Shown here one piece after another: positions 23,819 through 37,168 of a stretch of DNA of 50,099 nucleotides. The notes below the pieces were generated by a model. The model had not been told where the DNA came from, did no database searches, and saw only the letters and a program-made list of their open reading frames with translations. Location: contig CATJOM010000054.1 in assembly GCA_949741915.1 (NCBI GenBank), positions 1 to 50,099 on the forward strand. The letters run 5' to 3'. The stretch's first letter is position 1, and each line of letters begins with the position of its first letter. Both the position numbers and the translations under genes were made by a program. This DNA is from an uncultured Candidatus Melainabacteria bacterium (GTDB taxonomy: Bacteria > Cyanobacteriota > Vampirovibrionia > Gastranaerophilales > Gastranaerophilaceae).

Positions 23819-26800
23819 TTAAAATATCCCTAAAAATTTTTTCTTTCTGTAATTGGTTATGGTGTCACAATTTAGCCGGGTTTTCTTATCATATGTTTTA
23901 ACTGCCGTCATATAGGCTCTTGCTGTATCTATGCTTGTAAAACAAGGTATCCCGTATATTTCGGCAATTGTTCTAATCTGAAAACCGGATGTCTGGGAAT
24001 TTTTACCGAGAGTTGGCGTATTTAAGACAAAGCTCAAACGACCTTCCTTCATACGTTTTTGAAGTTTATCTACCATGAATTTTTCTATCATCTTTGATGG
24101 TATGCCGTTTTTCTCTAAAAATTTATGCGTGCCCCAGGTTGCCATAATAAAGAATCCCTGTTCGTAAATCTGTTTCACAATCTTTAATGCCGGTTTTTTA
24201 TAATGGTCATTTAAAGACACAAGCACACGCTGCTTTTTTTGGTCGAATTTATATCCCCCCGCAATAAATGCCTTTAATAAAGCCTTTTTATAAGAATAAT
24301 CCACCCCTAAAACTTCGCCAGTGGATTTCATTTCAGGTGCCAGCGCCGGGTCTATTTTGTTGAGTTTCCTAAAGCTGAAAACAGGCATTTTTACACACAC
24401 AAGCTTTGTTGTCTTATGAAGCCCTATGCCGTATCCTTGTCCCCGTATGCTTTTTCCTAATATTGCATTTATTGCAATCTCTGTCATAGGAAGCCCTGTC
24501 ACCTTTGACATAATAGGCACGGTCCTTGAAGCTCTTGGGTTTACCTCAATTACATAAACAACGTCATCCTTAATGATAAACTGTATATTCATAAGGCCGA
24601 TTATTTTTACCTTTTGGGCAATTTTTTTAGCATATTCTACAAGTTTTTTCTCCTGCCTTTTTGTAATATTTCTTGAAGGATAGATGCTCATAGAGTCGCC
24701 TGAATGTACCCCTGCACGCTCTATGTGTTCGCATATGCCTGGAATTAAGACATCTTTGCCATCCGAAATAGCGTCTAATTCTACCTCTAACCCCTCTATG
24801 TACTGGTCAATTAATACTGGATGTTCGTTCGAAAACTTTAAAGCTTCGTTAATATAAGTTAAAAGCTCATCATCATTGTACACCACTTGCATGCCACGCC
24901 CGCCAATTACATATGAAGGCCGCACCAATACGGGATATCCAAGTTCCTTTGCAGTGCTAAGAGCCTCAGCCGTGCTTCTTACACCCCTTCCTTTTGGCTG
25001 TGGTATATTTAGGTCTGATAAAAGTTTTTCAAAAACCTTCCTATCCTCAACCATATCAATGCTTTCAAGGGAGGTTCCTAGAATTTTCACCCCTTCTCTT
25101 GCAAGCTTTGGCGCCAAATTTATTGCTGTCTGTCCGCCAAACTGTACCATTACCCCCTCAGGCTTTTCTTTTCTTATAATGTTCATCACATTTTCAGCGT
25201 TCATAGGTTCAAAATAAAGCCTGCTTGCTATGTCAAAATCGGTCGAAAGCGTCTCAGGGTTTGAATTTACCATAACAGATTCATAACCGTTTTGAAGAAT
25301 TGCCATTGAAGCATGGACTGAACAATAGTCAAACTCTATCCCCTGGCCGATTCTAATGGGGCCTGAGCCTAAAACCACTATGTTACCTTTCTTTTGGTTG
25401 CCTCCTTTTTCTTGAGGAGGCTCTTTAGAGTTGACTTCACCATGTTCCATCTTGTATTCTTCAAGCTCGCACGCTTCGCCATATGTAGAGTAGAAATAAG
25501 GCGTTGAAGCGTGAAATTCTCCGGCACAAGTATCCACAATCCTAAACGCAGCAGGGTAATCGTACTCCTTTAGTTCGTCTATTGAAACGTTTGAAATGTC
25601 TGAAATTTCGCAATCCAGATAGCCATAATCTTTTGCCTTTTTGTAAAGCTCTAAATTAAGAGGCTTGATGGACATTTCAAACTCAAGTCCTACAATGTCT
25701 TTAATTTGATTTATAAACCAAGGGTCAATCTTTGTAATTTCCTGAACTTTTTTAACATCAAAATTCCTTTTAAGTGCTTCCGCCACCCTGAAAATCCTTC
25801 TGTCATCTTGAATGTAAAGGTTTTGCAGTAATTCTTCATCAGGCAGATTTTCAAATTTATAATGCAAAATCCCCGGGTGCTTGTCTTCCAATGATGCCAC
25901 AGCCTTCTTAAAGCTGCTCTTAAACGTCCTGCCGATTGCCATAACTTCGCCTGTCGCCTTCATTTTGGTGCCAAGCATCCTATCGCCTGTCGCAAACTTA
26001 TCAAATGGCCATTTTGGAATCTTTACAACAGTGTAATCAAGCGCCGGCTCAAACGCCGCGACAGTTTTACCCGTTATGGCATTTTTAATCTCAGAGAGTT
26101 CATATCCGATTGCAATTTTTGTTGTAACTTTTGCAATAGGATAACCTGTAGCCTTCGAGGCAAGCGCCGAAGACCGGCTTACCCTCGGGTTTACTTCAAT
26201 TACATAATACTGATTAGATGTTGTATCCAAGGCATACTGTACATTACAGCCCCCTTCAATTTTTAGGGCGCGTATAATTTTTATGGCAGAGGCCCGAAGC
26301 ATCTGATATTCGTTGTTTGTAAGCGTTTGAGACGGCGCCACAACAAAGCTGTCTCCTGTGTGAATTCCAATAGGATCAATATTTTCCATATTGCAGATAA
26401 TAATGCAGGTATCGTTGGAATCGCGCATTACTTCATACTCAATCTCTTTGAATCCTGCAATACTTTTTTCAACCAGTACTTGGTTTATAGGAGATTGCTG
26501 CAGTCCTGAATATACGATTTCCTCATATTCGGTTTCATTATTGGCTATACCGCCGCCAGAGCCGCCAAGAGTGAACGCAGGCCTTATAATAATAGGAAAT
26601 CCTATCCTGTCAGCGAATTTTTTTGCATCATCATAGCTTGAAACTATTTCACTGTCGGGAATCGGTTCTCCTATTTCATTCATCAGGTTCTTAAAAAGTT
26701 CCCTGTCCTCAGCCTTTTTGATGGATTCAATGTTTGTACCTAAAAGTTTTACGCCATATTCATCTAAAACGCCTGCATCACTTAGCTCGCAGGCCAAATT

Positions 26801-27088
26801 GAGACCTGTTTGTCCGCCAAGAGAGGCTATAAGGCCGTTTGGACGCTCTTTTTTGATAATGCAAGTTAAGCTCTCAAGGGTCAAAGGCTCGATATAGACT
26901 TTATCTGCAATATTTTCATCGGTCATAATCGTTGCAGGGTTTGAATTCACAAGGATAACTTCAATCTTTTCCTCCCTTAATGCGCGGCACGCCTGTACCC
27001 CAGCATAGTCAAATTCTGCTGCCTGCCCTATGATTATTGGACCAGAACCTATTACGAGTACTTTTTTTATGCTTAAATCTTTTCCCAT
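23819..27088 (-). CDS. carB: carbamoyl-phosphate synthase large subunit
   Basis: A 1089-residue enzyme that makes carbamoyl phosphate from bicarbonate, ATP and CarA-supplied ammonia for pyrimidines and arginine. Two homologous ATP-grasp halves are visible. The first opens [23 protein letters not shown] and contains [13 protein letters not shown]; the second opens [23 protein letters not shown] and contains [14 protein letters not shown]. The C-terminal MGS-like allosteric domain follows (~950-1089). AAAGGAAAG precedes ATG. Last gene of the pyr operon, separated from carA by 171 bases holding a possible internal promoter. Confidence 0.98.
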   Translation of the reverse strand: [1089 protein letters not shown]

Positions 27089-27259: not shown

Positions 27260-28381
27260 TTATGATAGATTTGCCACTTCGTCAGCCTTTCTTAAGGGTA
27301 TTTTTTTGTATTTACGCATTTTTTCAACCCACTCATCAAAAATCACAGCAGCATCAGTGGGACCAGGGTTTGCTTCAGGGTGAAACTGTACTGCATCAAT
27401 CTTCAAGCTGTTAGACTTAAACCCTTCCAGTGTGCCGTCGTTCAGGTTTTGATACGTTGCATCCATTATTTTTGTAAGACTTTCAGTATCTACCGCATAT
27501 CCATGGTTTTGCGATGTCATCATGACCTTTTTGTTCAAAAGGTTTACAACTGGGTGATTTGCACCCCTGTGGCCGTATTTCAGTTTATATGTTTTTGCCC
27601 CCAAAACTATTGATAACAGCTGATACCCAAGACATATGCCAAAAATCGGCAGTTTTCCTATCAAATTATGTAGTGTATTTATCTCGAATTCGCAATCCGC
27701 GGGGTTTCCGGGGCCATTTGAAAGAAAAATACAGTCAAATTTTCCATCTAAAATTGTGTTAGCTTCCGTATTGGCCGGAAATACTGTAACTCTGCAACCT
27801 CGCCTGATTAAGCTGTCAATAATACCTGTTTTGCAGCCATAGTCAATAAGAGCCAGATTAATATCCCCAAAATCATTTACCCGCCTGATTTTATTGGATG
27901 AAACCTTGAAAACCACATCTCTGTCTGTTGTGTATAAATCAAGCTGGGCCATTTTGCTTGTAATGTTGTTTTCATCAACATTTTCAGTTGTAATAAGGCA
28001 ATTCATTGTACCCTTTTCTCTGATTTTTTTGGTTAAAAACCTGGTATCGATACCGCTGATTCCTATTATACCGTGTTCTTTCAAGTATTCTGAAATATTT
28101 TTTCCGCTCTTATAGTGAGATTCGTTTTTGCACCAATTTTTAACTATAAATCCCTTGCACCTTGGCTTTTCAGATTCTGAATCGGTTTCATTTATGCCAT
28201 AGTTTCCGATTTCTGGGTAGGTCATTACTATGACCTGGTTTGCGTATGATGGGTCGGTTAAAATCTCCTGATAACCTGCCATTGAGGTATTGAAAACAAT
28301 TTCGCCCATTGAAGTGCCTTCTGCCCCAAAGGATTCGCCCCTTAAAACCGTGCCGTCCTCTAATATTAGTGCTGCTAGCAT
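27260..28381 (-). CDS. carA: carbamoyl-phosphate synthase small subunit
   Basis: A 373-residue glutaminase subunit that feeds ammonia to CarB. The N-terminal CPSase domain (ALILEDGTVLRGESFGAEG, GEIVFNTSMAGYQEILTDPSY) is followed by a class I amidotransferase with nucleophile Cys in FGICLGYQLL and His/Glu in QFHPEANPGP. The start overlaps the pyrF stop by seven bases, so translation is coupled. Confidence 0.98.
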   Translation of the reverse strand: MLAALILEDGTVLRGESFGAEGTSMGEIVFNTSMAGYQEILTDPSYANQVIVMTYPEIGNYGINETDSESEKPRCKGFIVKNWCKNESHYKSGKNISEYLKEHGIIGISGIDTRFLTKKIREKGTMNCLITTENVDENNITSKMAQLDLYTTDRDVVFKVSSNKIRRVNDFGDINLALIDYGCKTGIIDSLIRRGCRVTVFPANTEANTILDGKFDCIFLSNGPGNPADCEFEINTLHNLIGKLPIFGICLGYQLLSIVLGAKTYKLKYGHRGANHPVVNLLNKKVMMTSQNHGYAVDTESLTKIMDATYQNLNDGTLEGFKSNSLKIDAVQFHPEANPGPTDAAVIFDEWVEKMRKYKKIPLRKADEVANLS

Positions 28382-29130
28382 TCTATTTCTCCAATTTCAT
28401 CATATATTTTTTTCATTGCATTAATCGGGGTTAAACCCTCTGCCGGCTGTGTTGCTGCCCTTCCTATAACTAAATAATCTGCCCCCTGCTCAATTGCAAA
28501 TTTTGGTGTTGCCGCTCTTTTTTGATCGTCTTTACTGCTCCAGGCTGGCCTTATGCCGGGGCACAATACCTTGAAATCAGCTCCACAGGCTTCTTTTATC
28601 CTCTTTGCTTCCAAGGAAGATGCCACAACGCCGCTCATACCAGCCTTTTTTGCCAATTTTGCAAGCCTTATTGCAAATTCTGAAACATCTGTTTTTATTT
28701 CAAATTCTTCATCCATAACTTCCTGAGAAATGCTTGTAAGCATCGTCACAGCAAGGATTACGGGCGGATTAACTCCAAAATTTTTATTTAATTTTTCAAA
28801 TGCTTTCATAGCACCGTTTTTAGCTGCCTGCATCATCTTGAGACCACCAGTGGCGTGCACATTAAAGAAATTGGCACCTCTTAAAACCACATTTTCGCTG
28901 GCTTTTTCAACAGTATTTGGGATGTCGTGGAGCTTAATATCAAGGAAAAAATTTGAATTTTTACCCAAAATATAGTCTATCACTTCGTTTCCGTATTTTG
29001 TATATAATTGCAGCCCAATCTTGAATGTTCCCACATATGGATATAGTGAATCTACAAGGATTTTAGCCTCTTTGATATCTTCAACATCAAGCGCCAGAAC
29101 GATTTTCTCTTTTATTTTGTCATTTATCAT
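28375..29130 (-). CDS. pyrF: orotidine-5'-phosphate decarboxylase (operon copy)
   Basis: A 251-residue OMP decarboxylase, the last step of UMP synthesis. It carries the catalytic DxKxxD array in FLDIKLHDIPNTV, VLAV/TMLTS and phosphate loops PGIRPAWSSKDDQ and YLVIGRAAT. It overlaps pyrC by four bases (ATGA) and carA by seven. A second, divergent copy sits at 36413-37168, also with catalytic residues. Confidence 0.97.
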   Translation of the reverse strand: MINDKIKEKIVLALDVEDIKEAKILVDSLYPYVGTFKIGLQLYTKYGNEVIDYILGKNSNFFLDIKLHDIPNTVEKASENVVLRGANFFNVHATGGLKMMQAAKNGAMKAFEKLNKNFGVNPPVILAVTMLTSISQEVMDEEFEIKTDVSEFAIRLAKLAKKAGMSGVVASSLEAKRIKEACGADFKVLCPGIRPAWSSKDDQKRAATPKFAIEQGADYLVIGRAATQPAEGLTPINAMKKIYDEIGEIEC

Positions 29131-30122
29131 ACTAAAACTTTTCCTCTTAGTCTCATATTTTCATAGGGCGAAATTTTGCACTTAGACTTAAATTCAGCCG
29201 ATTTTACAACCCATTCCACATCTAAATCCACCGTAATTTCACGCTTGTTTTCTATCCCTAAAATTTTTGCTGGATTGTAGCACATTTTTTCTAAAATTTC
29301 ATCAAGTGAAAGCACGCGCAAGGCAAGTGGGAAGGCGGTTTCAAGCCCTACTATTCCATTCGGGGAGCTTGAATATGGCATCAGTTTTTCTTCTACAGTA
29401 TGCGGAGCGTGGTCAGTAGCTATTACATCTATCGTTCCATCCTTCAGACACTCTATAACAGCCTCTCTGTCAGCTTCTTCTCTGAGCGGGGGGTTCATTT
29501 TGTACACTCCGTTTGATGTTACATCCTTTTTTGTAAAAGTAAAATAATGCGGTGCTGTTTCGCAAGTCACCTTAAATCCTTGTAACTTGGCGCTTTTAAT
29601 GGCCTTTAGCGCGTCAGATGTAGATATATGGCAAAAATGCAGCCTCGGATTTGGACATAATCCTTGCTTAGCAAGGCTTTGAACATGTTTGAATACGTCA
29701 ATCTGCCATTCTACCTCATTTACCTCGTTTTCGCAGTGTGAAAGTATTAATTCACCTGACTTTAGCGCGTTTTTGAACACTTCTTTGTCTAAAATGGGAA
29801 GACCATCATTCGAAAAAGCAATAGCACCGGCTTTTTTCAGGTTTTTAAAGCGTACAAGTTCAGTGGTATTAAGGTTTTTGGTCACTGCAGAAATTGGATA
29901 TACGTCTATATTAGGGTTTTTAGACGTGACATCAAGCAAAAACCTTATTATATCAGGATTATCAGCCACTGGGTTAGTGTTTGGCATTGCACATATGCTT
30001 CCGAAGCCACCAGCAATCGCACTTGCCATACCGGTTTCCAGGGTTTCTTTACGTGAAAACCCTGGCTCTCTAAGGTGAACGTGCATATCAACAAAAGCTG
30101 GAATTTTTTTAATTTTTGTCAC
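29127..30122 (-). CDS. pyrC: dihydroorotase (short form)
   Basis: A 331-residue dihydroorotase closing carbamoyl aspartate to dihydroorotate. The metal site is visible in DMHVHLREPGFSRKETLE, LSHCEN, LHFCHIST and VIATDHAPHTVEEK. It starts only ~11 residues before the HxH motif, so the ~45-residue N-terminal strand region found in typical ~430-residue type I enzymes is absent, while the C-terminal tail (RLRGKVLV) is kept. The start overlaps pyrB by 14 bases and the end overlaps pyrF by four. No frameshift is visible upstream that would restore the missing part. Confidence 0.95.
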   Translation of the reverse strand: MTKIKKIPAFVDMHVHLREPGFSRKETLETGMASAIAGGFGSICAMPNTNPVADNPDIIRFLLDVTSKNPNIDVYPISAVTKNLNTTELVRFKNLKKAGAIAFSNDGLPILDKEVFKNALKSGELILSHCENEVNEVEWQIDVFKHVQSLAKQGLCPNPRLHFCHISTSDALKAIKSAKLQGFKVTCETAPHYFTFTKKDVTSNGVYKMNPPLREEADREAVIECLKDGTIDVIATDHAPHTVEEKLMPYSSSPNGIVGLETAFPLALRVLSLDEILEKMCYNPAKILGIENKREITVDLDVEWVVKSAEFKSKCKISPYENMRLRGKVLV

Positions 30123-31050
30123 TTTTTTCCCCTAAAATCATCTCCAGGACTGCCATTCGGGTGTATACGCCGTTATTTGCCTGTTTTAATATTATGTCTC
30201 CTTTTTTTGAGTTTAATAATGCCGAATTAGCCTCTACATCACGGTTTACAGGCCCTGGATGCATTAAAATGCACTCAGCAGGGAGGTTTTCATCTGTTAA
30301 TTGATAATTTTTAATATAATCTTCAAGTTCAATTTTTTCCTGAATTCTTTCTTTTTGAATCCTCAAAATCATTGCCACATCTGCATTTTGAAGGCCATCA
30401 GCTAAATTGTCAACCCATTGTGCATTTTTTATGCTCTCATCCCTGAAATAGCTTGGTGCCACACATTTTATGTTAACATTAAATCTGCTTAATAGCTCTA
30501 TATTTGACTTTGCAACCCTTGAATGGCGTATATCCCCTATTATTGTTAGGTTTAAGCCGTTTATGTTTCCAAAAATTTCCTTTAATGTAACAAAATCAAG
30601 CAAAGCCTGCGTGGGGTGGCTCTTTTGGCCTTCTCCTGCATTGATTATAGCAATATCTCTGAAAAATTTTCTGCCCATTAACTGTTTCTCAAGAGTGTCT
30701 TTTACAAGCCCCTCTTGGCTTGTGCGGATTATACAAGCGTCAAACCCAATGGCAGAAAGGTTATTCAAGGTGTCAAAAAAGTCTTCTCCTTTTGAAATAG
30801 AGGATTTAGACGTTTCAAAGTTGTAAGCCGTTGCACTAAGCCTATTTAGCGCCATTTCAAATGAAAATTTTGTACGCGTGGAATTTTCAAAAAACATCAT
30901 AGCGACCTGTTTTTCCTTGAGGCTCAAGGGTTTCGCTCCATTCTTAATTTCAATGGCTCGTTCAGCAATTGCTGCAATCTTGCTTGTAGTGAGGCTTTTA
31001 ATGTCAAGTAAATGTTTCATCTTTGGCTCAATCTTTACTGCTAAATCCAT
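30109..31050 (-). CDS. pyrB: aspartate carbamoyltransferase catalytic subunit
   Basis: A 313-residue ATCase that joins carbamoyl phosphate and aspartate. Visible are FFENSTRTKFSFEMALNRL (carbamoyl phosphate site), SHPTQALLDFVTLKE and ILMHPGPVNRDVEA. No regulatory pyrI is present. The start at 31050 has GGAG nine bases upstream at the end of pyrE; an internal ATG at 31020 is a less likely alternative. Confidence 0.97.
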   Translation of the reverse strand: MDLAVKIEPKMKHLLDIKSLTTSKIAAIAERAIEIKNGAKPLSLKEKQVAMMFFENSTRTKFSFEMALNRLSATAYNFETSKSSISKGEDFFDTLNNLSAIGFDACIIRTSQEGLVKDTLEKQLMGRKFFRDIAIINAGEGQKSHPTQALLDFVTLKEIFGNINGLNLTIIGDIRHSRVAKSNIELLSRFNVNIKCVAPSYFRDESIKNAQWVDNLADGLQNADVAMILRIQKERIQEKIELEDYIKNYQLTDENLPAECILMHPGPVNRDVEANSALLNSKKGDIILKQANNGVYTRMAVLEMILGEKSDKN

Positions 31051-31053
31051 ATT

Positions 31054-31632
31054 TTAAGCTCCAGCCCTGCTTCCAGGCTTAGCAATAGGTATATTTTCTT
31101 TGCATAGCGGGCAATTTGCTGGTTCATAAACAACCGGGTCGATTTTTAAAAGTGAATTTATCCTGAGTGCATCGTCTAGCTTTCCCTGTGTCCTGTCTAC
31201 AATACAGCCTATTCCGACAACAACAGGCTCAAACTCTTTTATGGCATCTATTGTCTCAAAAATCGTTCTTGCTGTGGTGATTACATCTTCAATTATAACT
31301 ACCTTTTCGCCTTTTTGCAGGCTGTATCCGCGTCTTAGCTGCATTGTGCCGTCTTTTCTTTCAACAAAAAGATTGCGTTTTCTTGCCTGTTTTGCTACCT
31401 CATATCCGAAGATTACAGCGCCGATTGCAGGTGCTATAATGGTGTCAAACTCAATATCTGCCAACTTTTTCGCTAGTTCATTGCCTATTTTTTCAACCAA
31501 ATCAGGGTATTGATACAATTTTGCGCATTGAAAATACGTGTCAGAATGCAGGCCGCTTGTGAGGCAAAAATGCCCGTGCAATAAGCCATCTGCCTCTATT
31601 AATAACTGTTTTATGTTGGTTGCTTCAATCAT
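31054..31632 (-). CDS. pyrE: orotate phosphoribosyltransferase
   Basis: A 192-residue OPRTase that converts orotate and PRPP to OMP. The PRPP motif is VVIIEDVITTARTIFETI, and the substrate end shows GLHSDTYFQCAKLYQYP. The tail contains a CxxC (NCPLCKE), as in long PyrE forms of some bacteria. The ATG overlaps the pyrD stop (ATGA); pyrB follows three bases after. Confidence 0.96.
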   Translation of the reverse strand: MIEATNIKQLLIEADGLLHGHFCLTSGLHSDTYFQCAKLYQYPDLVEKIGNELAKKLADIEFDTIIAPAIGAVIFGYEVAKQARKRNLFVERKDGTMQLRRGYSLQKGEKVVIIEDVITTARTIFETIDAIKEFEPVVVGIGCIVDRTQGKLDDALRINSLLKIDPVVYEPANCPLCKENIPIAKPGSRAGA

Positions 31633-32549
31633 TTTCTAAGTTCCTCTTTTAAATGTTTTAAATCTCTAAACCCTTGTTTTACAATGAATTCAGCCAATTC
31701 TTTGGCTAAATTTACAGCTATACTGGGGTTTGTAAAGTTTTCTGTGCCTATTTGAATAGCCTCTGCGCCCACAGTAAAAAATTCAAGCATATCATTTAGG
31801 TTAGAAATGCCGCCAAGTCCTATCACTGGCAGGTTTGCAACTTCTTTAATTCTTTTTACCATAGAAAGCGCAACAGGTTTTATGCACTTTCCGCTTAAGC
31901 CACCCTGCACGAGGCTTTTTACTACTTTTGTGCCGCTAAAATTTAATTCCACCCCAAGACCTTTGACGGTATTTATGGCGCTAATGCAGTCTGCACCAGC
32001 ATTTTGAACAGCAAGGGCTAAATCCTCAATATTTGTAACATTTGGCGTTAGTTTTATTATTAAGAAGCCTTTGTATTTTTCTCTAATCCTTGAAACCAAG
32101 TCATAGAGGCACTTTTCATCTGTTCCAAATTCTAAACACCCGGCTTTTACATTAGGGCAGGAAACGTTAACTTCAATAGCTGGAATTTCTTCTCTCTGGC
32201 TTATTTCAGCCAGCTGCACGTAGTCTTCCTCGGTTTTTCCTGCAATATTTAGGATAAAATTTATCCCAAGCTTCCTCAGTCTCGCTAATTTACGGTTTAC
32301 AAATGCTTCAATTCCTATATTTTCAAGCCCTATGCGGTTTATAAGACCACTTGAGGTCTCAAATAGCCTCTTGCCTTCATTTCCAGGGCGCTCTTCCAGT
32401 GTAATCCCTTTGGTGACAATTGCGCCAATGTTTCTAACATCTAAAAATGCATCAAATTCATCACAATAGCCATATGTGCCAGAGGCTGTCAAAATAGGAT
32501 TTTCAAGGTAAAATTTTCCAAAGTCAACGCTTAAATCTATCATTCCCAA
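31629..32549 (-). CDS. pyrD: dihydroorotate dehydrogenase B, catalytic subunit
   Basis: A 306-residue class 1B enzyme (FMN-binding TIM barrel) that oxidises dihydroorotate with electrons passed to PyrK. Visible are ENPILTASGTYGYCDEF, IGAIVTKGITLEERPGN, the catalytic-base Cys in EVNVSCPNVKAG, and GLGGISNLNDMLEF. It overlaps pyrK by 10 bases, in keeping with a stoichiometric PyrD-PyrK complex, and so uses NAD rather than quinone or fumarate. Confidence 0.97.
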   Translation of the reverse strand: MGMIDLSVDFGKFYLENPILTASGTYGYCDEFDAFLDVRNIGAIVTKGITLEERPGNEGKRLFETSSGLINRIGLENIGIEAFVNRKLARLRKLGINFILNIAGKTEEDYVQLAEISQREEIPAIEVNVSCPNVKAGCLEFGTDEKCLYDLVSRIREKYKGFLIIKLTPNVTNIEDLALAVQNAGADCISAINTVKGLGVELNFSGTKVVKSLVQGGLSGKCIKPVALSMVKRIKEVANLPVIGLGGISNLNDMLEFFTVGAEAIQIGTENFTNPSIAVNLAKELAEFIVKQGFRDLKHLKEELRK

Positions 32550-33520
32550 ATAACCTCCGCACCTGAAAACACTGGCCCATCAGCACATACGGAGGCATTT
32601 TTTATCGCATCGTCCTTCTCTAGCTTAATTACACACCCTCTGCATACTCCAATGCCGCATGCCATAACCTTTTCCATTGCTATTTCTGCCCTAAGTTCGT
32701 TCTTTTTTGCAATGTCGCAAACCATTTGGAGAACAACCTTGGGCCCGCATGAATAAAGGATTTCAGGCCTAAACTCATCTATCAGGTTTTGAACCTTATC
32801 TATAACACTGCCGCCAATAACCACGCCATCAGAGCCTTTTATTACCTCTTCTTCCGTCTTAAACCCTGAAATCAGGTAATTTGAGATAGATTTTTTATCT
32901 AATATTTTTTTAAGATACAACATTGGTGCAATTCCAATGCCTGCTCCGATTAGGAGCGCTTTTTTGCTTGAATTTACGCCTATTGCACAAGCCACTGCCT
33001 TGGTTTCAATTGCTCCACTTGGTTCGCTGTCTTTATCCATACCTTTGGTGCCATTCATGACTGTTTGGTTAATTCTGTCTACCGTCTCGCATCCCCTTGC
33101 ATCTGTGGTTTTAATTGTAATATCACCACTAGCGCTGGCAGTATTTTTGGGGTTGTTTTTATTATCAGGTATGGTAAATGTATTGCCCAATGGCGCTAAA
33201 TAGTCAATCATATCACCTTTCTGAAGGCCTTTTAAATAATTTGTACCGTCGCCTTTAAGTTTAAATAAAACCGTGATAGCCCCTTTGTTTTTGGCGTTTT
33301 CCTCTAAAATGCTGTCAAAATTTCTGTTATTAGTGCCAAAGGCCGAATTTAAACAAAAATCCGCTACGCTGAACGGACGTCTGAGAGTTTTATGGGGAAT
33401 TAATATTGAGACAAATTGTCCAGGCAAAATAGATTCTAATGGGGTTGAAAACTCTAGCCTAACAGTATCTTTGGCTATATTTTCTATATTTAAAACTATT
33501 CCCTTCAAATGCTTTTTCAT
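32540..33520 (-). CDS. pyrK: dihydroorotate dehydrogenase B, electron transfer subunit (long form)
   Basis: A 326-residue FAD/2Fe-2S subunit that moves electrons from PyrD to NAD. Visible are the flavin motif RRPFSVADF, NAD domain KKALLIGAGIGIAPML and the iron-sulphur cysteines ACGIGVCRGCVIKL...CADGPVF. Typical PyrK is ~250-260 residues; here about 65 extra polar residues (~120-186, rich in Asn, Thr, Asp) are inserted between the FAD and NAD domains, and a smaller insert lies at ~56-79. First gene of the pyr operon, 43 bases after a leader terminator. Confidence 0.95.
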   Translation of the reverse strand: MKKHLKGIVLNIENIAKDTVRLEFSTPLESILPGQFVSILIPHKTLRRPFSVADFCLNSAFGTNNRNFDSILEENAKNKGAITVLFKLKGDGTNYLKGLQKGDMIDYLAPLGNTFTIPDNKNNPKNTASASGDITIKTTDARGCETVDRINQTVMNGTKGMDKDSEPSGAIETKAVACAIGVNSSKKALLIGAGIGIAPMLYLKKILDKKSISNYLISGFKTEEEVIKGSDGVVIGGSVIDKVQNLIDEFRPEILYSCGPKVVLQMVCDIAKKNELRAEIAMEKVMACGIGVCRGCVIKLEKDDAIKNASVCADGPVFSGAEVIWE

Positions 33521-33562: not shown

Positions 33563-33596
33563 TATTAAAAAAGGAAAGGCAAAAACGCCTTTCCTT
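33563..33596 (-). terminator. leader terminator/attenuator of the pyr operon
   Basis: On the minus strand, AAGGAAAGGC and GCCTTTCCTT form a perfect 10-bp stem with loop GTTTTT followed by six T. It lies between the operon promoter and pyrK with no minus-strand gene upstream for 8 kb, so it acts on the pyr transcript itself. An 8-base upstream segment (33630-33637) can pair with its 3' arm (33569-33576) and undo it. Confidence 0.85.
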
Positions 33597-33604
33597 AAAT
33601 TAGA

Positions 33605-33640
33605 TTATATGAAAATCTTTGTTAAAAACTTCCTTTTCAT
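33605..33640 (-). CDS. candidate pyr leader peptide (11 residues)
   Basis: The minus-strand ORF MKRKFLTKIFI ends with TAA nine bases before the terminator stem. GAGG lies only two bases before the ATG, and the predicted transcript start falls at about 33641, so translation would be leaderless or poor. A ribosome finishing here would cover the terminator, as in the E. coli pyrBI leader. That it is translated is inference. Confidence 0.35.
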   Translation of the reverse strand: MKRKFLTKIFI

Positions 33641-33647
33641 ATCCTCA

Positions 33648-33653
33648 ATTATA
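33648..33653 (-). promoter_or_regulatory. -10 box of the pyr operon
   Basis: A perfect TATAAT on the minus strand lies just upstream of the leader hairpin. The -35 region at 17 bases is poor (GAATTA). Expected transcript start is near 33641. Confidence 0.5.
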
Positions 33654-33785: not shown

Positions 33786-34445
33786 ATGGATATGTCTGCA
33801 AAAATTGCAGGGTTGCAAATTGGCTCTAATTCCGGCTTAATGAGCTCTAATAATTTCCCCCGAATGAACACTAATTTTAATACATATCAAAGCCTTGCGC
33901 CCCTTGGGTCTGATACGCTTTCATTTGGTGCGATGAAGAAAAAAGAATTTAACGGTGTCGACCTTCTTGTTGCGAATAAATTTAAAGCGCCTATTGAAAA
34001 ATTTAACGATAATAAGGATTTACAAGCTTGGTGTGCCGATAAGATTAATAAAATAAAGGATAAAGATTATAAAGGACGACAGCCTGCAACCACAGAGCAA
34101 AGAAAACATATGCTAAAAGAATGGTTTAACTATGTTTTAGAGGAAAATGACAGCTATACAAGCACTATGGCGCTTTTGATTTTGGATGGAATAACAAAAG
34201 ATTTGAATAAAGACAACGATAACGTTCCGCTGGTTCTAAATCAAAGAGTACTTGCTGATACTATGTCTGAAATGCAGGACAAGGCAAGGGAAGATAAGAA
34301 TTTTCAGGCCAATTTCAACAAAATGTATCAGTTAAATTTGCAGAATTTTTATACAAAAGATATTGAAGAAACGGATGATGATGGCGTAAAAATTGGGGGG
34401 AAAGACGGGCTGGGTGCTTATCCCATCATTAGAAAACGACCCTGA
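33786..34445 (+). CDS. 5' part of a frameshifted lineage-specific repeat protein
   Basis: 219 residues in this frame. The N-terminal ~50 residues are polar and contain DTLSFGAMKKKEF, the LSFG motif also seen in two other proteins here. A helical domain follows (HMLKEWFNYVLEENDSYT, STMALLILDGITKDLN, LVLNQRVLADTMSEM). The frame ends ...GVKIGGKDGLGAYPIIRKRP, but removing one base from the G6 run at 34395-34400 continues as GVKIGGKTGWVLIPSLENDPENF into the next ORF. So this and 34393-35346 are one gene with a single-base shift: a pseudogene, an assembly error, or slippage. I do not know a function. ATG 33786 follows AGAAAGCAAAAA. Confidence 0.7.
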   Translation: MDMSAKIAGLQIGSNSGLMSSNNFPRMNTNFNTYQSLAPLGSDTLSFGAMKKKEFNGVDLLVANKFKAPIEKFNDNKDLQAWCADKINKIKDKDYKGRQPATTEQRKHMLKEWFNYVLEENDSYTSTMALLILDGITKDLNKDNDNVPLVLNQRVLADTMSEMQDKAREDKNFQANFNKMYQLNLQNFYTKDIEETDDDGVKIGGKDGLGAYPIIRKRP

Positions 34446-35346
34446 AAATTTTAATGATAATGTTAATAAATTAAAGTCATTGTCTTATAATAAGACATGG
34501 TGCACAAAAAATAATTTTAATGCAGAACCTTATTTAGAAAAGGATGATTTTCATATTTACCTTGACAATGGTAAATTAAAGTTTTGTATCAGGATTATCG
34601 GAGATGAAATACAGGAAATACAAGGTGATAGGAATGATGACCTGCTGCCTGCTGATTATTATGATGTAGCTATGCAGCATATAGATAAAGAAGGGTTGAA
34701 GATAAATAAGAATGTTGCTAGTTTTATTCAAAGTTCAAAAAAACACATTGAAAAGATTGAAAGTATTAAAAAAGACCTTAAAGAAGAAATCGATATTACA
34801 AACCCGAGAGAAGTTTATGAATTTTTTGAGATAGAATGTACGGAAAATGCCGATGGCACAATGTCGCTTTCAGAATATCGTCAGCCTGAAGATGATATAA
34901 CATTTTCTGAGTTAGGAATAAACGAAGTTGAGTTATATAAAAAGGCTAATATTAAAAATATAGCTGGAGACGCAAATTTCTTTGGCTCCCAGGTGCAAAA
35001 CCTTGGCAATCTCCAAACAATAGGCGGAAGCGCAATTTTCAAATATTCACAGGTGCAAAACCTCGGCAGTCTTCAAACAATTGGCGGAGGTGCAAATTTT
35101 GAACATTCTCAGGTGCAAAACCTTGGCAAACTTAAAACAATAGGCGGAAGTGCAGATTTTGGACATTCTCAAATAAGAGATCTTGGTAATCTCGAATCAA
35201 TTGGCTGGAATGCGTACTTCGAAAATTCTCAGGTGCAAAATCTTGGCAATCTTCAAACAATAGGCGGAGATGTATATCTTGAAAATTCAAAACTTACAGA
35301 AGTTGATTTCAAAAATATCAAGGTTGGGTACGAGATATATGCCTAG
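34393..35346 (+). CDS. 3' part of the frameshifted gene: WCTK domain plus 20-residue repeats
   Basis: 317 residues in the +1 frame. The first half has LKSLSYNKTWCTKNNFNAEP followed by YLEKDDFHIYLDNGKLKFCIRI, a pattern I associate with PcfJ-like and gut-cyanobacterial proteins. The second half has five 20-residue repeats (QVQNLGNLQTIGG...F..S) predicted to stack as a leucine-rich-like or beta-solenoid surface, then a short cap. The repeats suggest protein or surface binding. The TTG at 34393 is probably not a true start, because the sequence continues the upstream frame. A strong terminator follows at 35378. Confidence 0.7.
   Translation: MGGKTGWVLIPSLENDPENFNDNVNKLKSLSYNKTWCTKNNFNAEPYLEKDDFHIYLDNGKLKFCIRIIGDEIQEIQGDRNDDLLPADYYDVAMQHIDKEGLKINKNVASFIQSSKKHIEKIESIKKDLKEEIDITNPREVYEFFEIECTENADGTMSLSEYRQPEDDITFSELGINEVELYKKANIKNIAGDANFFGSQVQNLGNLQTIGGSAIFKYSQVQNLGSLQTIGGGANFEHSQVQNLGKLKTIGGSADFGHSQIRDLGNLESIGWNAYFENSQVQNLGNLQTIGGDVYLENSKLTEVDFKNIKVGYEIYA
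34990..35289 (+). repeat. five tandem 60-bp repeats (20-residue solenoid units)
   Basis: Units begin with CAGGTGCAAAA and encode QVQNLGxLxTIGGxAxFxxS. Units 1, 2, 3 and 5 are close; unit 4 (QIRDLGNLESIGWNAYFENS) is diverged. Near-identity of DNA suggests recent unit duplication. Confidence 0.9.
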
Positions 35347-36412: not shown

Positions 36413-37168
36413 ATGACAATTGAAAAACCAAAAACGCCTAAAGATAGAATTATTTTGGCTTTGGATGTGGATGATTTCGATGAAGCAAAAAAGCTTGTTT
36501 GTGAGTTAAAGGATTATATTGGTTTCTTTAAGGTTGGGCTGCAGCTATATACATCGGCTGGGTATGATGTAATAAGAATGATTCACGATGAGGGCGCAAA
36601 TGTCTTTTTTGACGGCAAATTTCATGACATTCCAAATACGGTTGCAAGAGCATGCGCAAACCTTGTAAAGAGAAATATAAGTTTTTTTGATGTTCATATA
36701 AAAGGCGGCTCTAAAATGCTTGCAACAACGGTGAAGCTGGCTAATGAAACCGCGAAGAAATATGAAAAACAGCCTCCTGTTATCCTTGGGGTGACACTTT
36801 TATCAAGCTTTGGACAAAGAACCCTCACTCAGGAATTAAACGTAAATATGAACATTGATGAATACGTAGGAAGCCTTGCAAAAATGGCAATTGATGCTGG
36901 CTTAAATGGCGTTGTTGCATCTGCTTCTGAGGCTAATGTTATAAGAAAGGAATGCCCTGAAGATTTTATAATAGTCTGTCCTGCTATAAGACCTACCTGG
37001 AGCGTAGTTAATGACCAGGTGCGCGTTGTAACTCCAACAGATGCTGTTCTTTCAGGGGTTGATTATATGGTAATAGGGCGTCCTGTAATCTGTGCGCAGA
37101 ACAAGATTGAGGCAATAAAGCTCATAATTGATGAAATTGAAGAGGCGGAAAGCCTGATAAGAGTATAA
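36413..37168 (+). CDS. pyrF: second orotidine-5'-phosphate decarboxylase
   Basis: 251 residues, clearly homologous to the operon PyrF but diverged. The catalytic array is kept (FFDGKFHDIPNTV for FLDIKLHDIPNTV), as are PAIRPTWSVVNDQVR and YMVIGRPV. Differences include GLQLYTSAG and loss of an HATGG-type segment (HIKGGSK here). Both copies therefore look active. It heads a plus-strand cluster with ald, proB and proA, 16 bases before ald. It may be a regulated or constitutive back-up for UMP synthesis, or act on a related substrate. Confidence 0.93.
   Translation: MTIEKPKTPKDRIILALDVDDFDEAKKLVCELKDYIGFFKVGLQLYTSAGYDVIRMIHDEGANVFFDGKFHDIPNTVARACANLVKRNISFFDVHIKGGSKMLATTVKLANETAKKYEKQPPVILGVTLLSSFGQRTLTQELNVNMNIDEYVGSLAKMAIDAGLNGVVASASEANVIRKECPEDFIIVCPAIRPTWSVVNDQVRVVTPTDAVLSGVDYMVIGRPVICAQNKIEAIKLIIDEIEEAESLIRV

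Follow-up and report, generated by a model that had tools for sequence, protein, structure and literature searches.

In Bacillus, the protein PyrR controls the terminator of the pyr operon. In the pyrL leader of the Escherichia coli pyrBI operon, plentiful UTP leads to termination, while polymerase pausing on a U-demanding template, combined with a coupled ribosome that prevents the terminator from folding, leads to read-through (PMC10135430, PMC5021804). At E. coli rph-pyrE, shifting the rph stop codon nearer to the attenuator has been reported to restore the regulation of pyrE (PMC2784333). The distances involved can be compared with those of E. coli expressomes, which are collided at ≤37 nt, with coupled structures known up to 47 nt (PMC11711091).

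The leader considered here precedes the pyr operon of an uncultured Candidatus Melainabacteria bacterium, within a 50,099-nt stretch of DNA that was analysed as a whole (hereafter, the window). Like pyrL, it has an open reading frame (ORF) upstream of an intrinsic terminator that precedes the pyr genes, its translation would reach the terminator, and no antiterminator is needed. In five relatives (L078, L082, L090, L092, and L148), the leader ORF runs through the terminator, as it does in pyrL. However, pyrL has 44 codons, whereas the leader ORFs of this lineage mostly have 7–15, and some of their starts look leaderless. In pyrL, the 5′ arm of the terminator is made of pyrimidines (GCCCCTC) and a pyrimidine-rich tract lies upstream of the hairpin, while the present leaders have a purine 5′ arm and their pyrimidine block consists of the loop, the 3′ arm, and the U-tract. 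The two have no sequence relationship. Since the pyrimidine-rich tract of pyrL lies upstream of its terminator and not inside it, a sensor within the hairpin is something that we infer for the present leaders.

Other known systems share some of these features. In rph-pyrE, the ORF likewise stops close to the stem (5 nt from it, in a frame ending TGATTTTTAAGGCG), but that ORF is a whole gene, whereas here it is a tiny dedicated leader. The pyr operon is terminator-controlled in the Bacillus PyrR attenuators as well, but 60 genomes of the window's family have no PyrR scoring over the cut-off, and its leaders have no conserved antiterminator. Lastly, the amino-acid leader-peptide attenuators (trp and his) also place a short leader ORF before a terminator; in contrast to them, the present leaders have no regulatory codon run and no conserved alternative helix.

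The pyr operon of the window and its leader

The genes pyrK-pyrD-pyrE-pyrB-pyrC-pyrF-carA-carB, as identified with NCBIfam models, lie in this order on the window's minus strand and cover every step to UMP (Table 1). An earlier note, made from the letters of the window, had described an attenuator-type leader on this operon. This description is borne out in part: the letters of each leader element are present at the position given for it, and the analysis confirms a complete operon along with the leader's promoter element, its ORF, and its terminator.

Table 1. Positions of the pyr genes and leader elements in the window
Feature	Coordinates	Strand	Remarks
-10 element of leader promoter, TATAAT	33648–33653	-	No recognisable -35 in the window's genome; predicted transcription start about 33641
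Leader ORF, 11 codons (MKRKFLTKIFI)	33605–33640	-	ATG...TAA; ATG 7 nt 3′ of the -10
Spacer, stop codon to terminator stem	33597–33604	-	8 nt
Terminator hairpin, AAGGAAAGGCGTTTTTGCCTTTCCTT	33571–33596	-	-15.6 kcal/mol; purine-rich 5′ arm 33596–33586, U loop, pyrimidine-rich 3′ arm 33581–33571
Terminator U-run	33567–33572	-	6 U
Proposed 5′ hairpin arms, ATATGAAAA and TTTTCATAT	33642–33634 and 33615–33607	-	Sequence complementarity
Proposed antiterminator arms, AAAAGGAA and TTCCTTTT	33637–33630 and 33576–33569	-	Sequence complementarity
pyrK	32540–33520	-	Operon gene 1; best models are dihydroorotate dehydrogenase electron transfer subunit (E 4e-33), a clear match but below model cut-offs
pyrD	31629–32549	-	NCBIfam model over cut-off
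pyrE	31054–31632	-	NCBIfam model over cut-off
pyrB	30109–31050	-	NCBIfam model over cut-off
pyrC	29127–30122	-	NCBIfam model over cut-off
pyrF	28375–29130	-	NCBIfam model over cut-off
carA	27260–28381	-	NCBIfam model over cut-off
carB	23819–27088	-	NCBIfam model over cut-off

As a whole, the leader of the window folds better than its shuffles (z -3.7), and the terminator accounts for most of this. Taken as a single sequence, its ORF is unremarkable, as 20% of shuffles also have one; it is across the family that the ORF becomes remarkable.

Three further observations concern the same region. Relatives match residues 1–121 and 185–326 of the window's PyrK, so that residues ~122–184 (about 32967–33157, minus strand) appear to be inserted sequence in this genome. 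On the plus strand, a second OMP decarboxylase (PF00215, E 1e-48) is encoded at 36413–37168, outside the pyr operon, which has a pyrF of its own. Also on the plus strand, two overlapping ORFs in different frames and without a Pfam match occupy 33786–35346; the second has repeats like VQNLGNLQTIGG, and a frameshift within a single gene may account for the pair.

Conservation of the leader among relatives

The regions upstream of pyrK were analysed for 99 loci. The window's family, with 17 of its genera, contributes 95 of these, and its sister families in the Gastranaerophilales, f6 and f7, contribute one and three, respectively. A non-redundant set of 60 leaders, with <85% identity to one another, was drawn from these. 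A terminator, with a tiny ORF (mostly 7–15 codons) reaching it, precedes pyrK in all 99 leaders, and in all 99 the ORF ends within 10 nt of the terminator stem or runs into it. The leader is real, and it is conserved in the family members checked that keep the pyr genes. The family comprises 41 genera among the sampled genomes, and 24 of these are without pyrK; pyrB is also missing in 23 of the 24, which indicates that the pathway is gone there.

Beyond these families, no comparable leader was seen upstream of the pyrK genes at class level, several of which are without an anchored start, or in most loci of family f3, where L109 has a poor hairpin. The upstream sequence of the f4 locus is too short to judge the presence of a leader. 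In the two f2 loci (L146 and L147), a different hairpin lies upstream of pyrK, followed by T (AGGAGGTGTGATACCTCCT) and containing AGGAGG, and this could be another kind of leader. Several related genomes, including those of L060, L072, and L075, carry a repetitive insert of the type GCGAAATGAGCGGCAGCGACAGCGAAGCG between the terminator and pyrK.

The ORF is more frequent than in shuffled sequence. Each of the 60 non-redundant leaders has an ORF with an ATG start and ≥7 codons that ends ≤10 nt before the stem or enters it, compared with 19.5 +/- 3.5 of 60 when the 70 nt preceding the stem are dinucleotide-shuffled, a figure that is not a strict probability because the leaders are related to one another. 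The start codon is ATG in 98 of all 99 leaders and GTG in the other, and its distance to the stem peaks at 37–38 nt. Stop codons lie between -68 and +10 nt from the stem in the 60 leaders, and never further than 10 nt before it.

The pattern of substitution supports the leader ORF being a translated frame. In 15 disjoint pairs of close relatives, 16 of the 39 codons with a single change (41%) differ synonymously, compared with 18% expected (p = 0.0007), and the third codon position has 30 changes, versus 14 and 19 at the other two. The peptides themselves differ between genera, as expected if it is translation that matters, and not the peptide. Lysine is abundant in them, at 26% of residues, while Asp and Gln make up 0.9% and 0.8%, respectively, and the ORFs have no conserved codon run.

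Promoters fall largely into two types. In 54 of the 60 leaders, a -10-like hexamer lies either 5–7 nt (9 leaders, including the window and its genus mate) or 17–25 nt (45 leaders) upstream of the start codon, with the remaining 6 placed elsewhere; the -10 was chosen by score, so that individual assignments may be wrong. In relatives, TTGACTT is often present ~17 nt further upstream of the -10. Judged by this spacing, the mRNA of the 5–7 nt type would begin at the ATG or within 1–2 bases of it, and the window's ORF is possibly leaderless. Reiterative transcription at the start site was considered and rejected, as the -10 is not followed by a conserved U-run in the start regions. Many relatives (L007, L014, L031, L040, and others), but not the window, have a near-palindrome, TTTGTTACATATATTTACA / TTTGTAACAATTGTTTACA, upstream of the -10, which is possibly a regulator site.

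The leader terminator has an unusual composition. A strict finder could read 41 of the 60 leader hairpins, and in these the 5′ arm is 85.5% purine, versus 36% in 30 ordinary terminators of the window's own genome (taken from about 420 kb; the genome was sampled as about 370 kb of stretches plus the window) and 49% in 73 ordinary terminators of relatives (Mann–Whitney U, p 4e-12 and 8e-16, respectively). The 5′ arm of the window's leader terminator has a higher purine share than any of the 30 own-genome controls. Loops are 76% U, compared with 45% and 39% in the two control sets. Along the transcript, the pyrimidine fraction rises from 1–4% in stem nt 1–10 to 95–98% at nt 20–30, and the loop, 3′ arm, and U-tract together are about 87% pyrimidine; the window's own terminator has 18 pyrimidines among the 19 nt that run from its loop into the U-run. 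No such split between purines and pyrimidines is seen in the ordinary terminators of the same genomes.

In the window's genome, the pyrK site alone has this terminator, and a search of 117 family genomes with a strict form of the pattern found one site besides the pyrK leaders, in G049. This site (G049:C5:141473-141501; L250, L257) is a bidirectional hairpin of the GAAAGG/CCTTTC type and not a pyrK leader.

Probable translation-coupled attenuation and its alternatives

Of the mechanisms considered by the earlier note, a coupling type fits the evidence best. It is likely that the leader is a translation-coupled attenuator of pyrKDEBCF-carAB, similar to those of E. coli pyrBI and pyrE and working without an antiterminator helix. 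Since the same layout occurs in every family relative checked that keeps the pyr genes, a ribosome chasing the polymerase probably sets the operon on or off. Translation of the ORF in the cell, the role of UTP and CTP as the signal, and the direction of the response given below are points that we infer.

Transcription would start at the ATG of the 11-codon ORF or just before it, and a ribosome would load onto the nascent RNA. When UTP (and CTP) is plentiful, the polymerase would cross the pyrimidine block fast, the hairpin would fold before the ribosome arrives, and transcription would terminate. When pyrimidines are scarce, the polymerase would slow in the pyrimidine block, and the ribosome could catch up and reach the stop codon, which precedes the stem by 8 nt. 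The bulk of the closed-up ribosome would then block the hairpin, and the polymerase would read into pyrK.

The geometry of the leaders can be compared with this scheme. From a P site on the last codon to a polymerase at the eighth U, the spacing has a median of 38 nt and is 45 nt in the window, which would place the leaders in or close to the range of collided and coupled expressomes. Some features speak against the scheme. In the window, where 8 nt separate the stop codon from the stem, a ribosome on the stop codon would cover no more than about 2 nt at the beginning of the 11-bp stem, so that masking would rest on the closeness of polymerase and ribosome at the 45-nt spacing; the window's promoter also has no clear -35. 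The distance from the start codon to the eighth U has a median of 72 nt; because the leader is very short, the ribosome would have to load and translate very fast.

A more tentative proposal is that the terminator is itself the nucleotide sensor. The polymerase would slow during synthesis of the hairpin when UTP or CTP is short, and a ribosome on the tiny ORF, leaderless in some species, would thereby reach expressome contact distance. The purine/pyrimidine split could also have a cause other than sensing.

The main rival to translation-coupled sensing is a general valve, in which read-through depends on prompt translation of the ORF, and thus on translation capacity or growth rate, with no nucleotide being sensed and the split being incidental. 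The conserved features (ORF, stop spacing, and terminator) are those that such a valve would have, but the leader belongs to the pyr operon and disappears where the operon does, the ordinary terminators of the same genomes are not split, and the E. coli precedents in this pathway sense UTP; a valve is unlikely. Attenuation by the leader peptide, sensing an amino acid or tRNA through codon-specific stalling that alters termination, or a ligand through nascent-peptide arrest, appears quite improbable. There is some selection on the ORF at the amino acid level and its peptides are lysine-rich, but these peptides are unlike between genera and lack a conserved codon run, and the residues that feed the pathway, Asp and Gln, each account for less than 1%. 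Moreover, without a conserved antiterminator, a ribosome stalled early would leave the terminator free to form, which is the reverse of the usual logic.

The earlier note had also proposed a switch between three helices: a 5′ hairpin, the terminator, and an antiterminator competing with both. Complementary letters for these do exist in the window. However, in the refuting check that the note itself had named, on the helices across relatives, the terminator held, as did the ORF, and the other two helices did not. The 5′ hairpin is at chance level, with z -1.1 for the window region alone and a mean z of 0.02 in 60 relatives (3 of 60 below -2), and so is the antiterminator, with z -0.5 for the window duplex and a mean z of 0.04 (4 of 60 below -2). 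The antiterminator is also weaker than the terminator in 59 of the 60 relatives, and in the window its energy is -6.2 versus -15.6. In addition, transcription that begins ~7 nt past the TATAAT, near 33641, would miss roughly one base at the beginning of the 5′ hairpin arm, and the predicted fold there changes. Because the two helices do no better than shuffles, the three-helix scheme is probably not how the leader works, and the chance left to it is slight. Control of the terminator by a riboswitch or by a PyrR-like RNA-binding protein, as PyrR does in Bacillus, has an almost negligible probability. The absence of pyrR observed by the earlier note extends to the family, with PyrR (NF003549) over the cut-off in none of 60 genomes. 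No Rfam family, pyr leaders included, matched at the gathering threshold, with weak unrelated matches alone at E up to 10. The ligand-sensing leader that the note had envisaged is likewise unlikely, because the leader measures about 50 nt and the terminator is its sole conserved structure.

Translation-coupled attenuation of this kind would be a variant of what is known from E. coli pyrBI and pyrE. For the lineage, novelty is judged from a search of the open-access PMC literature, which found no report on this leader or on attenuation.

If the terminator does act as the sensor, the leader would be a translation-coupled attenuator of unusual compactness, and one that is conserved in many relatives of the cyanobacteria that do not photosynthesise. 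The purine/pyrimidine-split terminator is a simple and transplantable design, and the sensing idea is directly testable. The geometry of these leaders, with the stop codon at the stem and about 38 nt to the release point, provides a natural test set for the role of ribosome–polymerase contact in gene control. More broadly, the leader suggests that UTP-type translation-coupled attenuation, known from work on the pyr genes of E. coli, also serves as the conserved control of these genes in a large group of gut bacteria that are distant from Proteobacteria.
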